A stretch of DNA of 64,000 nucleotides. It comes from Paenibacillus hemerocallicola. GTDB taxonomy: Bacteria > Bacillota > Bacilli > Paenibacillales > NBRC-103111. The notes under the pieces were generated by a model. The model ran no database searches, had not been told where the DNA came from, and worked only from the letters and a program-made list of their open reading frames with translations. The first letter of the stretch is position 1; every line of letters begins with the position of its first letter. Positions 4,744 to 16,796 of this stretch are shown piece by piece. The stretch covers positions 1-64,000 of the forward strand of contig NZ_VDCQ01000037.1 in NCBI RefSeq assembly GCF_006265175.1. Direction: 5' to 3'. Both the position numbers and the translations under genes were made by a program.

Positions 4744-4931
4744 CGTCTCCTTCGGATAAATAGGGCCGGCATATAGACTCGGGCGATCATTTCATCTGCA
4801 TGCCGGAACAATATGGGTCCAGTACGGCTTGTACAAAATGGGCCTGGTGGCGGTTGTACGGGGCGCAGTGATAGCCCATCATTAATGTGGGAACCTGTAT
4901 TTCCCAAATTACCGTCAAGGAGGGAATTTGT

Positions 4932-5180
4932 ATGAAGAAGCGTTTGTTCATCGAAGAGCTGGAAGTCCGGCAATCCAGCTCGCCCCTGTTCATTGCCCCG
5001 ATCGATCCGAATTTGATGGCCACGACGATGGCAGTAGGCGAGGAAGGCGGACCGATCTACACGACGCAAGCGGTCGGGGAAGAGGGGGGACCGATCTATA
5101 CGACGCAAGCCGTCGGTGAAGAAGGCGGTCCGATTTATACGACGCAGGCGGTTGGTGAAGAAGGCGGATGGCTTAAATAA
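4932..5180 (+). CDS. Graspetide (plesiocin-type omega-ester peptide) precursor
   Basis: An 82-residue peptide. Residues 1-30 (MKKRLFIEELEVRQSSSPLF...) form a leader rich in charged residues. From residue 31 come four tandem 13-residue modules with the pattern TT-x4-EE-GGPIY: the first reads TTMAVGEEGGPIY, the second and third TTQAVGEEGGPIY, and the last ends EEGGWLK. TTxxxxEE is the core motif of group 2 graspetides such as plesiocin, in which an ATP-grasp ligase links Thr hydroxyls to Glu side chains as esters; plesiocin also has four modules. The modules differ almost only at third codon positions, which points to selection on the peptide. The start is the ATG 7 bp after AAGGAGG. A small hairpin (TGGGAA/TTCCCA, 4888-4906) sits just before the ribosome binding site. 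Product structure and activity are inference. Confidence 0.85.
   Translation: MKKRLFIEELEVRQSSSPLFIAPIDPNLMATTMAVGEEGGPIYTTQAVGEEGGPIYTTQAVGEEGGPIYTTQAVGEEGGWLK
5022..5177 (+). repeat. Four tandem 39-bp units encoding the graspetide core modules
   Basis: Units begin at 5022, 5061, 5100 and 5139, each encoding a 13-residue module. ACG ACG opens every unit. GAA/GAG, GGC/GGG/GGT, GTA/GTC/GTT and GCA/GCG/GCC alternate synonymously. The only amino acid changes are Met to Gln after unit 1 and the closing WLK in place of PIY. Confidence 0.95.
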
Positions 5181-5222
5181 TTGAGCGATCGGAATGACCA
5201 TTCTTGTGCGCGCTTCAGAGCC

Positions 5223-5250
5223 GGTGCTTTGAGGCGGGCACTCGTTTTTT
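5223..5250 (+). terminator. Possible attenuating terminator between precursor and ligase genes
   Basis: GGTGC pairs with GCACT (one G-T pair) across a 10-base loop, followed by C-G and six T residues. The stem is weak. A partial terminator here would give more precursor than enzyme transcript, as is common in RiPP operons; that role is inference. Confidence 0.35.
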
Positions 5251-5315
5251 AACAGTATGGAATAAATAAGTTTCGGGATCTCCACAAAGCACCTGGAAAA
5301 GCATCGGAGCAAAGA

Positions 5316-5330
5316 CCCCACTTTGTGGGG
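5316..5330 (+). other. Perfect hairpin just before the ATP-grasp gene ribosome binding site
   Basis: CCCCAC-TTT-GTGGGG is a perfect 6-bp stem with a 3-base loop, ending 7 bp before AGGAGGT of the ligase gene. It could mark a processed 5' end, or with the following T-rich bases a weak terminator. No other evidence for its role is visible. Confidence 0.4.
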
Positions 5331-5348
5331 TTACTTTAGGAGGTGCGG

Positions 5349-6308
5349 ATGATGAAGGAAGTATCGGTCGGCATAATTGGTGCCGCCAACGAACGGCATT
5401 GCGTTTATTTGTCCCGCGAGCTGGAGCGGCAAGGAGCCCGCCCCGTCATTCTGGACAATTCGCCCAACCTGCCGTTTCCCTTGAGCCAGCATGCGGACGA
5501 GAGCTATTACGGCGGAATGCCTTTAAGCGATACCGCGATCTATTATTTGCGGGCGTTGTTCCTACCTACTCCGGCTATCGATACGGAGCCGATCTCCGGA
5601 CAAATACGGGAGGAGGGGTACGTGGCTTATGCGGCGGAGCGCGAACGGTATGCCGCATGGTTGTCGTGGCTGAAGACGGCCCCTCTGCATAACCGGCATA
5701 TCGTCAATCCGGTAGATACGCTGCTTCTCCATTTCGCTAAGCCATATCAGCTCGAATGTTTGCGCAAGCGGCATATTCCGGTCCCGGATACGCTGGTGAC
5801 CGGCGATGCGAATCTGCTGCAGCGGTTCAGCCGCAATCGTCAGGTCGTGTACAAGCCGGTCGCCGGAGGGGCTTTGTGCCGGTTGCTTACGGAGGAGGAT
5901 AAGGGCGAGGAAAGACTCGAGGCGCTGGCAACGGCGCCGGTGCTTTTCCAGGAATATGTGGCGGGCAGCGATCTGCGCGTATTCGTGCTGGACGGTCGGG
6001 TCGTTGCCTCCTTTCTCGTGGAGGGCGAGGGCATCGATTACCGTGCCGGGAAGACGAAGCTGGAGCCTTACGAGCTGCAGCCTGAAATCGCCGATTTGTG
6101 CGTACAAGCGTGCGAGACGTTGGGGCTCATATTCAGCGGGGTGGATTTGAAGCTGCGGGTAGACGGTTCCGTCGTGCTGATCGAGTGCAACCCGAGCCCG
6201 ATGTTCGAAGGCTTCGACCGGGTAAGCCCGGTGCCGATCGTGGAACAGCTCGCCGCCTATTTGATCGATAGCGCCATCCAAGTTCGCAAAACGGAATTTC
6301 GGAGTTGA
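5349..6308 (+). CDS. ATP-grasp ligase, graspetide-type (RimK-like)
   Basis: A 319-residue RimK/microviridin-ligase-like ATP-grasp enzyme expected to form ester cross-links between Thr and Glu in the precursor encoded just upstream. Seen in the sequence: VVYKPVAGG, the nucleotide-binding lysine strand near residue 169; FQEYVAGSDLRVFVLDG, the hinge and substrate strand; and LIECNPSPMFEGFD near 278-289, where Glu and Asn would bind magnesium. Two ATGs (5349 and 5352) and a GTG at 5343 compete; the AGGAGGT motif favours one of the ATGs. The TGA stop overlaps the TTG of the next frame, suggesting coupling with the protease gene. Family assignment is strong; the partnership with the precursor is inferred from adjacency. 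Confidence 0.85.
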   Translation: MMKEVSVGIIGAANERHCVYLSRELERQGARPVILDNSPNLPFPLSQHADESYYGGMPLSDTAIYYLRALFLPTPAIDTEPISGQIREEGYVAYAAERERYAAWLSWLKTAPLHNRHIVNPVDTLLLHFAKPYQLECLRKRHIPVPDTLVTGDANLLQRFSRNRQVVYKPVAGGALCRLLTEEDKGEERLEALATAPVLFQEYVAGSDLRVFVLDGRVVASFLVEGEGIDYRAGKTKLEPYELQPEIADLCVQACETLGLIFSGVDLKLRVDGSVVLIECNPSPMFEGFDRVSPVPIVEQLAAYLIDSAIQVRKTEFRS

Positions 6309-6349
6309 ACCGAGAGGCCGATCGCGAGCAAGGGGAAGGGATTCGTAAC

Positions 6350-7495
6350 GTGTCCGCGCACGTATTCCGTATAGGGACGATCCATCACGACAGATTTTGG
6401 ATCGAACGGCCCGACGGCCGTCTGTTTCAAATCGACGGGCAAGCGAAGTCGGTGCTGGAACGTCTGGCGTCCGGCGCTTCCGCTGCAGTCGTATGCGAAG
6501 AGTCCGAACTGGAGCTCGAGGAGCTGGCGATGCTGTTTCAGATTCTCGGAATCGGGACGGATGAATCTTTTGTACTGGAAGGCGATGTTGAACATACAGT
6601 CGGAGTCGGGGACGATCCGGCGAATAATGCCGGGATGAGGGCAGCCGTTAGGCAGACGTCGGCTTCGTCCGGTGAAACGACGGAACGCAATTTCGTATTT
6701 CCATGGCTGGAATGCCGTTCATTTGCGTGGGTCGTAGCGTCGTTCTTATGCGTAGCTGTCGGATTGCTGGCGTGGTTTACGTACTCTGCGCCTTTGGCGT
6801 TTGTTGCAAGTTTTTCCGATCAATGGATCATCGCAGCCGCTTTGACGGTCGCCGTCATTTTACATGAGCTCGGACATCTGCTCGCGATGCCGCGGTCGGG
6901 CGGGATATCGGTATCGGTACATTGGTCTGGGCCGCTGCCGGTGTTCAGCATTGTCTGCAACGGGGCGTGGAAGCTGTCGGGACCGCAGCGAGTCCGCATC
7001 GATTTGGCCGGGTTCGCGACAGATGTTCTCGTATGCGGAATCGCTGCGGCGATCGGTCTTTTCGACAGCGGCTTATCGCCATGGATATGGACGTTTATTC
7101 TGGTGCAAGGCTTTCGCATGGTCTTCGCGATATGGCCGCTATTGCCGGGCGACGGGTACTGGCTGCTCGTCGACCTGTTCTCCGCCCCTAACCTGTGGAT
7201 GCATGCGGCAGACGATCTCAAGCGGTTGCGACTCAACTGGCTATCGCTTTATGCGCTGCTGCGAATAATGTTTTTGCTGCTTCTCTGGCTGTTGTATGGC
7301 TATATGCTATATTTCTGGATCGTATTTTTCCTGTCAAAAACGTGGGACGCGGCGCTTGGGTATATCTTGTATCCGGCTCCGTTACTCATGCTGTTGAATG
7401 TGCTTAGTCAGCTATATGGATTAGCGGCCGCGCTGCGGAGGTTTTCCCGAAAAACGGCAAGTCAACGTTCGGAAGAAGCGGGAGCTCTAAATTAG
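6350..7495 (+). CDS. Membrane M50 metallopeptidase with N-terminal PqqD-like domain
   Basis: A 381-residue protein. The first 80 residues (FWIERPDGRLFQIDGQAKSV...) match the small PqqD/RRE-like winged-helix pattern that binds RiPP leader peptides. A linker follows, then membrane segments carrying the site-2-protease zinc motif HELGH at 172-176 and a third-ligand motif LLPGDGYW with Asp near 268. Similar PqqD-M50 proteins occur in peptide clusters (for example YydH in the epipeptide operon). The likely job is leader removal, export-linked processing or immunity in the graspetide system. A TTG at 6305 overlapping the ligase stop is possible, but GTG 6350 has the good ribosome binding site AAGGGGAAGGG. 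No exporter gene follows. Confidence 0.75.
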   Translation: MSAHVFRIGTIHHDRFWIERPDGRLFQIDGQAKSVLERLASGASAAVVCEESELELEELAMLFQILGIGTDESFVLEGDVEHTVGVGDDPANNAGMRAAVRQTSASSGETTERNFVFPWLECRSFAWVVASFLCVAVGLLAWFTYSAPLAFVASFSDQWIIAAALTVAVILHELGHLLAMPRSGGISVSVHWSGPLPVFSIVCNGAWKLSGPQRVRIDLAGFATDVLVCGIAAAIGLFDSGLSPWIWTFILVQGFRMVFAIWPLLPGDGYWLLVDLFSAPNLWMHAADDLKRLRLNWLSLYALLRIMFLLLLWLLYGYMLYFWIVFFLSKTWDAALGYILYPAPLLMLLNVLSQLYGLAAALRRFSRKTASQRSEEAGALN

Positions 7496-16067: not shown

Positions 16068-16796
16068 ATGATACGGTTTCATCAGGTCAACAAACATTAC
16101 GGGCATTTCCATGTGCTCAAAGACATTAATTTGACCGTCCATTCCGGCGAGGTCGTCGTCGTAATCGGACCGTCCGGCTCCGGCAAAAGCACGCTCGTTC
16201 GTTGCATCAACCGGCTGGAAGCGATTACGGACGGGGAATTGATCGTGGACGGCATCCGCTTGAACGACAAGAAGACCGATATCAACCAGATCCGGCGCAA
16301 TATCGGTATGGTGTTCCAGCATTTCAATCTGTATCCGCATATGTCCGTGTTGAAAAATATTACGCTCGCCCCGATCAAGGTGGCGAACATGTCGGAGAAG
16401 GAAGCGCGCGAGACCGCGATGCTCTATCTTGACAAAGTGGGCATTTCGGGCAAGGCGGACGCTTACCCGTGGCAGCTGTCCGGCGGTCAGCAGCAGCGCG
16501 TCGCGATCGCGCGGGGACTCGCCATGAAGCCGAAAATCATGCTGTTCGACGAACCGACCTCCGCGCTCGATCCGGAAACGATCGGAGAAGTTTTGGACGT
16601 GATGAAAACGCTTGCTCTGGAAGGGATGACGATGGTCGTCGTCACCCACGAAATGGGCTTCGCCCGGGAAGTGGCCGATCGCGTCGTATTTATGGACCAA
16701 GGACGGATAGTAGAAGACGCGGTTCCCGCCGAATTTTTTGCCGAACCGAAACAGGAGAGGGCGCAATTGTTTTTAAGCCGCGTACTGAATCATTGA
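16068..16796 (+). CDS. glnQ: Glutamine ABC transporter ATPase
   Basis: A 242-residue polar amino acid ABC ATPase. It has Walker [11 protein letters not shown]-loop [12 protein letters not shown], signature [16 protein letters not shown], Walker [15 protein letters not shown] and H-loop [15 protein letters not shown]; the last is characteristic of amino acid importers. The start is the ATG after GGAAGGGGGG. It leads a four-gene operon in the order ATPase, binding protein, permease, permease, the same order as B. subtilis glnQHMP. It would energise uptake of glutamine or a related amino acid. Specificity is inferred from this synteny and from the adjacent GlnKL-type two-component genes. Confidence 0.88.

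Follow-up and report, generated by a model that had tools for sequence, protein, structure and literature searches.

Plesiocin, a tetravalent graspetide, has two esters in each repeat unit (PMC12291112) and acts as an inhibitor (PMC13097080). Group 2 graspetide clusters show high co-occurrence with an NHLM-type transporter, which is frequent but not strictly defining (PMC13097080). The enzyme that cuts graspetides was called unknown in 2022 (PMC8939145); cutting has since been demonstrated for a C39 transporter and for NosP, while many graspetide clusters still have no identifiable protease, most class I microviridin clusters lack a gene for a leader peptidase, and the missing protease hampers production in laboratory hosts (PMC13039773). 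A 64,000-nucleotide stretch of Paenibacillus hemerocallicola (contig NZ_VDCQ01000037.1, positions 1 to 64,000; hereafter the window) was analyzed for a cluster of three genes at 4932..7495. It encodes a short precursor, an ATP-grasp ligase and a membrane protease of the M50 type that has a putative leader-binding domain. From sequence and fold prediction, these three parts are present with intact motifs, have relatives in other genomes and co-occur repeatedly. We propose, with a probability of about 0.62, that they constitute a minimal graspetide system in which the ligase would crosslink the precursor and the protease would dock on the leader and remove it. Ester formation, leader binding, cleavage and the cleavage site we infer from relatives. 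The features are listed below; RRE denotes the recognition element of ribosomally synthesized and post-translationally modified peptides (RiPPs).

4917..4924, forward strand: ribosome-binding site AAGGAGGG, 7 nucleotides 5' of the precursor ATG (read from the sequence)
4932..5180, forward strand: graspetide precursor, 82 amino acids, ATG start, leader of about 30 amino acids plus four TTxxxxEE modules (open reading frame list; homologues in 14 other close-family loci)
4944..4964, forward strand: leader motif LFIEELE, probable ligase-recognition motif (conserved in the close family)
4980..5009, forward strand: leader motif SPLFIAPIDP, candidate region for protease recognition or cleavage (tracks protease presence)
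5022..5162, forward strand: core of four TTxxxxEE modules, starting at 5022, 5061, 5100 and 5139 (motif count, tandem repeat)
5352..6308, forward strand: ATP-grasp graspetide synthetase, PsnB-like, 318 amino acids (Pfam RimK; PDB 7drm)
6350..7495, forward strand: RRE-M50 intramembrane metalloprotease, GTG start preferred (open reading frame, profiles, alignment, structural model)
6356..6562, forward strand: N-terminal PqqD-like domain, predicted beta3-alpha3, probable RRE (model with a predicted local distance difference test score of 91.4; structural matches)
6863..6877, forward strand: HELGH zinc-binding motif, residues 187-191 (HExGH unchanged in all 14 aligned proteins)
7139..7159, forward strand: LLPGDGY with Asp283, probable third zinc ligand (residue unchanged in all 14 aligned proteins)

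The precursor reads MKKRLFIEELEVRQSSSPLFIAPIDPNLMA followed by four modules of the type TTxAVGEEGG, and a 39-bp tandem repeat spans positions 5043-5168 of its core. A six-frame translation of the window holds six TTxxxxEE motifs in total, of which four lie within the precursor. A chance origin of the motifs was ruled out, as at least four were reached in 0 of 20,000 shuffled precursors. The four TT-x4-EE modules that the initial annotation had noticed in the short gene were thus all located and are real by the shuffle test. As in graspetide clusters generally, the precursor adjoins the ligase gene and carries repeated donor and acceptor residues, and the modules are kept in its homologues. Following the initial annotation, we take the TTxxxxEE motif to be that of group 2 (plesiocin). 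When the whole precursor was compared with PDB chains, seven weak matches were obtained (best E 0.0042), none of them named as a graspetide.

The ligase was identified as a RimK-like ATP-grasp protein by Pfam (57.6 bits against a cut-off of 21), and YKPVAGG and ECNPSP were unchanged in 11 of 11 aligned ligase rows, in agreement with the earlier description of intact lysine (KPVAGG) and magnesium (ECNPSP) motifs. Among solved structures 7drm was the best match by far (E 1.5e-40, 142 bits, residues 4-303; runner-up E 3e-8), with 9bou and AMdnB scoring lower, and this match relates the ligase to characterized graspetide synthetases. The 7drm chain, named 'ATP-grasp domain-containing protein' by its depositors, is presumably PsnB, the plesiocin synthetase. 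Kinship to plesiocin therefore holds for both the ligase and the multi-module core, whose motif we assume to be shared, although the ligase is divergent: 142 bits over 300 residues correspond to an estimated alignment score of about 38, which lies under a direct edge at the network threshold of 70 (PMC13097080). None of the NCBIfam graspetide models matched the ligase above its cut-off.

The protease frame is open to 7495 from either TTG 6305, which would overlap the ligase stop, or GTG 6350. The latter is preferred because its spacing to the ribosome-binding site looks better by eye and because the homologues in loci L057 and L065 start there. In the structural model, helices 170-194 and 283-292 hold HELGH and Asp283, placing the M50 motifs within the predicted membrane part, which has the core fold of site-2 proteases and is nearest SpoIVFB and RseP. 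Asp283 would be a zinc ligand, as in the M50 family. Pfam PF02163 gave 19.6 bits for the window protease against a gathering score of 27.2, and five of seven family members matched at E<=10. A catalytically dead protease is contradicted by the invariant HExGH and Asp283. Assignment to the YydH/LiaK epipeptide or the daptide protease equivalogs was also rejected, as the scores (24.7 of 225 and 31.2 of 300 bits, respectively) fall far under the NCBIfam cut-offs.

Its N-terminal domain is predicted to adopt the beta3-alpha3 winged-helix fold of RRE domains. In a structural search with the modeled domain, the top eight of 50 rows were RiPP enzymes or leader-binding proteins, and it is probably an RRE with a predicted function in leader docking. 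Of the PqqD-like/HELGH membrane protease that had been described, HELGH was confirmed and the PqqD-like character agrees with the predicted fold, but Pfam did not recover PqqD: no match was obtained at E<=10 in seven whole proteins or nine excised domains, a negative limited by the HMMER filters, which discard most weak matches. The NCBIfam lasso-PqqD model matched one of seven protease members (E 0.27), and a sequence profile run against the PDB gave 14 matches, all with E 0.32 or higher and none bearing the name of a PqqD protein.

Co-occurrence was analyzed in 16 close loci, comprising 12 from a scan of genome contigs (queried with four close ligase rows, of which one was partial), the window, and single loci from G109 (L040), G411 (L074) and G423 (L075); the matches in G102, G078, G459 and G467 are L061, L064, L066 and L065 by contig or position. 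The protease gene adjoins the ligase gene in nine of the 16, in three gene orders, and a precursor is visible in eight of these nine, so that the neighborhood comparison proposed in the initial annotation clearly contradicts the idea that the trio never occurs together elsewhere. The carriers are the window, Aeribacillus composti, Metabacillus malikii, Paenibacillus sp. P25, G411, G423 and metagenome-assembled genomes (MAGs) of Sporosarcina, Paenibacillaceae and Alicyclobacillaceae. Two of the loci are short contigs (L065, 3.9 kb, without a visible precursor, and L066, 4.7 kb), and therefore missing neighbors mean little there. In four carrier genomes searched whole, the protease was found at one place each. 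At the class level (398 genomes), the ligase profile matched five genomes (E<=1e-30) and the protease profile the same five (E<=1e-84) plus one at 5e-15. At the order level (392 genomes), a close ligase was found in four genomes (the window genome, G102, G078 and G109), a strong protease (E<=5e-36) in two of these four, and weak protease matches only (E 2e-11 to 9e-6) in 17 further genomes. This patchy spread suggests that the cluster has been spread by transfer. The data neither demand nor reject a single origin of the loci with protease (two changes on the best tree; approximately unbiased test, p 0.256). Plasmid records gave no protease match and three partial ligase matches (Halocatena, Halorussus and Candidatus Megaera). 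Mobile-element cargo was set aside, as no mobile gene was noticed in the lists of open reading frames, in which no systematic search for one was made. When 14 loci were clustered by script, the widest clusters among those listed, besides ligase and protease, were ABC ATPases (five loci) and response regulators (four loci), at differing places; long synteny was seen between two near relatives.

The motif [LM]FIx[EQ]LE is common to all 15 visible close-family precursors, with or without protease, and fits ligase recognition. The stretch SPL[FL][VI]xP..DP, just 5' of the core, is present in eight of eight precursors with protease and in none of seven without, which makes it a lead, from sequence, for a protease recognition region. 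T[TS]x4EE modules number three to five in the eight precursors with protease and one to three, mostly two, in the seven without. When the 15 precursors were checked by script for GG or GA ahead of the core, GA was found in two (G109 and P. xerothermodurans) and GG in none. The precursors of five protease-free loci (L059, L060, L061, L062 and L063) carry one or two modules and finish with EEGGC; this C-terminal cysteine is absent from the eight protease-associated precursors. A profile of 14 leaders did not match a plesiocin leader among PDB chains, and the string LFIEDL together with graspetide was not found in the literature. An LFIxDL-like motif, which no search confirmed, may be present in plesiocin leaders.

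The absence of an ABC exporter nearby was verified for the cluster. A full C39 transporter query against the whole window recovered only two stretches, both of ABC ATPases, near 1760-2371 (accompanied by a binding-protein-dependent permease) and 16071-16736, and tblastn with two C39 domain queries gave no match at E<=1e-3 in any of the 16 close loci, the window included, a search that a divergent C39 domain could escape. The NHLM-type transporter of group 2 was likewise not found, and the cluster has an RRE-M50 protease instead. Eight distant loci were fetched at length for comparison, and two without a TTxxxxEE precursor (G062 and G079) were dropped; three of the eight distant order-level matches (G106, G294 and G326) lay outside this comparison. 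In the remaining six loci, from Bacillota, the core motif is as in the window and the ligase is about 28-33% identical, but the leader differs, ending, by eye, in a double glycine ahead of the core. A C39 peptidase-transporter is encoded in five of them (L041, L042, L044 and L045 by Pfam; L054 by similarity, about 6 kb off), none was detected within the fetched stretch of L043, and a protease of the window type was found in none of the six.

Under the proposed mechanism, the ligase would dock on the LFIEELE motif of the leader and close side-chain esters between two threonines and two glutamates per TTxxxxEE module, giving up to eight esters in four plesiocin-like hairpins. The protease would bind the leader through its N-terminal RRE, and the intramembrane zinc site would remove the leader, probably in or near the conserved SPLFxxPxDP. 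In this way it would replace the C39 peptidase-transporter and the double-glycine leader of related clusters. By analogy with plesiocin, the product may inhibit a serine protease. SpoIVFB, to which the membrane part is near, removes the pro-sequence of sigmaK at the membrane. A role of the M50 protein in leader removal, export or immunity, as first envisaged, is plausible.

Several observations weigh against leader removal by the protease as a general step. Seven of the 16 loci have no adjoining protease (P. mendelii, P. oenotherae, P. xerothermodurans, P. plantiphilus, P. daejeonensis, P. sp. J2TS4 and G109), and in the five of these genomes that could be searched whole none was found at E<=1e-5, although precursor and ligase are present; the protease is therefore not essential to every member. 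Both the ligase and the protease gene of P. sp. P25 carry frameshifts (L039 7133-9261, chromosome record), due to decay or sequencing error. Moreover, the link between leader motif and protease is a lead only, because it amounts to one or two independent contrasts on the ligase tree.

The higher module number in protease-associated precursors and the short, repeated linker GGPIY of the window precursor would also suit a secondary processor, which either defines the final size by cutting between modules or behind them, or trims a peptide whose leader another enzyme has already taken off. This is unlikely, since the linkers differ among carriers while the SPLxxxPxDP leader stretch is kept in eight of eight, and RRE domains are established as normally binding leaders. 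The persistence of precursor and ligase in five genomes without protease, together with the modeled nearness to SpoIVFB and RseP, both agents of regulated proteolysis, could instead point to an immunity or stress-response factor that senses or destroys the peptide or frees a regulator and takes no part in maturation. Such a function is quite unlikely for a protein with a probable RiPP leader-binding domain whose nearest NCBIfam models are RiPP-maturation proteases and beside which, among the clusters listed, no further gene family recurs at a fixed place.

Among the same clusters no exporter recurs either, which would be accounted for if the protease also carried the peptide across the membrane or freed it from there, thus combining cutting and export. 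M50 proteases are not known as transporters, and MFS genes near the ligase (L063 and L075) or C39 proteins elsewhere in the host could export the peptide, making this decidedly unlikely even though both cleavage and export have been suggested for the M50 protease EpeP (PMC10885120). Overlapping or abutting ligase and protease genes in L058, L064 and L065 would fit a membrane scaffold without catalysis, which brings ligase and precursor together, a very improbable function given that none of the 14 aligned proteins departs from HExGH or Asp283. Leader removal by the RRE-M50 protease is thus the reading we prefer. Its boldest form, which we consider tentative and rather doubtful, is a self-contained trio in which one leader-docking membrane protein cuts and releases the crosslinked peptide without need of a transporter. 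As far as searched, graspetides would thereby gain their first cluster-encoded intramembrane protease, and the trio would imply a swap from C39 transporter to RRE-M50 protease with a matching leader change among related ligases. Against the no-transporter view, a transporter acting in trans is possible because four C39 peptidase matches are encoded elsewhere in the host genome (contigs C85, C90, C91 and C111), which probably has other peptide export systems.

Compared with described proteases, the window protein resembles the EpeP/YydH and LiaK epipeptide proteases and the daptide HExxH protease in being an M50 membrane protease of a RiPP cluster with weak profile kinship, but the partners there are an epimerase or daptide enzymes and not an ATP-grasp ligase. 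SpoIVFB is not known to have an RRE domain and acts on a protein substrate in sporulation. EpeP, TglG and TmoG are RiPP M50 proteases already known, and the pearlin proteases TglG and TmoG are membrane proteins acting on RiPP scaffold peptides (PMC10885120). The latter two cut a modified residue off the C-terminus, unlike the proposed leader removal, and are set apart here by their described function. NosP is likewise a dedicated graspetide (microviridin) leader protease (PMC13039773) but an AplP homologue of the M1 type and not a membrane M50 protein (PMC10885120). No report of a graspetide synthetase paired with an M50 protease was found in the accessible parts of the literature searched, where M50 mentions concern epipeptides and pearlins. 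Graspetide groups 26, 30, 32 and 40 have neighboring proteases or peptidase transporters of unnamed family (PMC13097080), so an earlier sighting of the cassette could exist.

Between the precursor and ligase genes lies one further feature.

5206..5250, forward strand: hairpin followed by a T-run, possible partial terminator (consensus scan and scripted search)

The scripted search also returned a hairpin with a T-run in L058, L064 and L075, and hairpins with a poor T-run were seen by eye in L056 and L057. The script, which ran without a chance control, gave hairpin candidates in protease-free loci as well (among them L061, L063, L067 and L040). The hairpin could make the precursor more abundant than the enzymes.

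Other RiPP-like genes were observed in the compared loci. Distantly related M50 proteins adjoin radical-SAM enzymes in L046 and L048 and lie in apparent operons in L046 (6745-11116), L047 (7190-8621) and L053 (4343-8531). L046 has a radical-SAM protein pair, L053 is similar by eye, and L046 and L047 encode a small peptide ending in CIDCCFQI; these three operons possibly represent an undescribed RiPP family. In P. sp. P25 (L064, 386-6860) a second cluster beside the trio encodes a class-III aminotransferase, a second M50 protein (31.8 bits), an ABC-type ATPase (by similarity) and two products that are radical-SAM/SPASM-like by eye, with no Pfam match. A LanM-type lanthipeptide synthetase (DUF4135 plus LANC_like) is encoded about 4 kb upstream of the graspetide precursor of P. 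xerothermodurans (L038, 13773-17039), and in the Alicyclobacillaceae MAG (L066, about 1900-2144) a lanthipeptide-like peptide end, TTPICAISATVAASSAACAGVG..., lies directly upstream of the graspetide precursor (by eye).

Taken together, a compact cassette with its own probable leader protease makes the question of how graspetides are cut directly testable, and it could serve as a tool for graspetide production. If the proposed function is true, ester-crosslinked peptides are served by an intramembrane protease fused to a domain for leader recognition.
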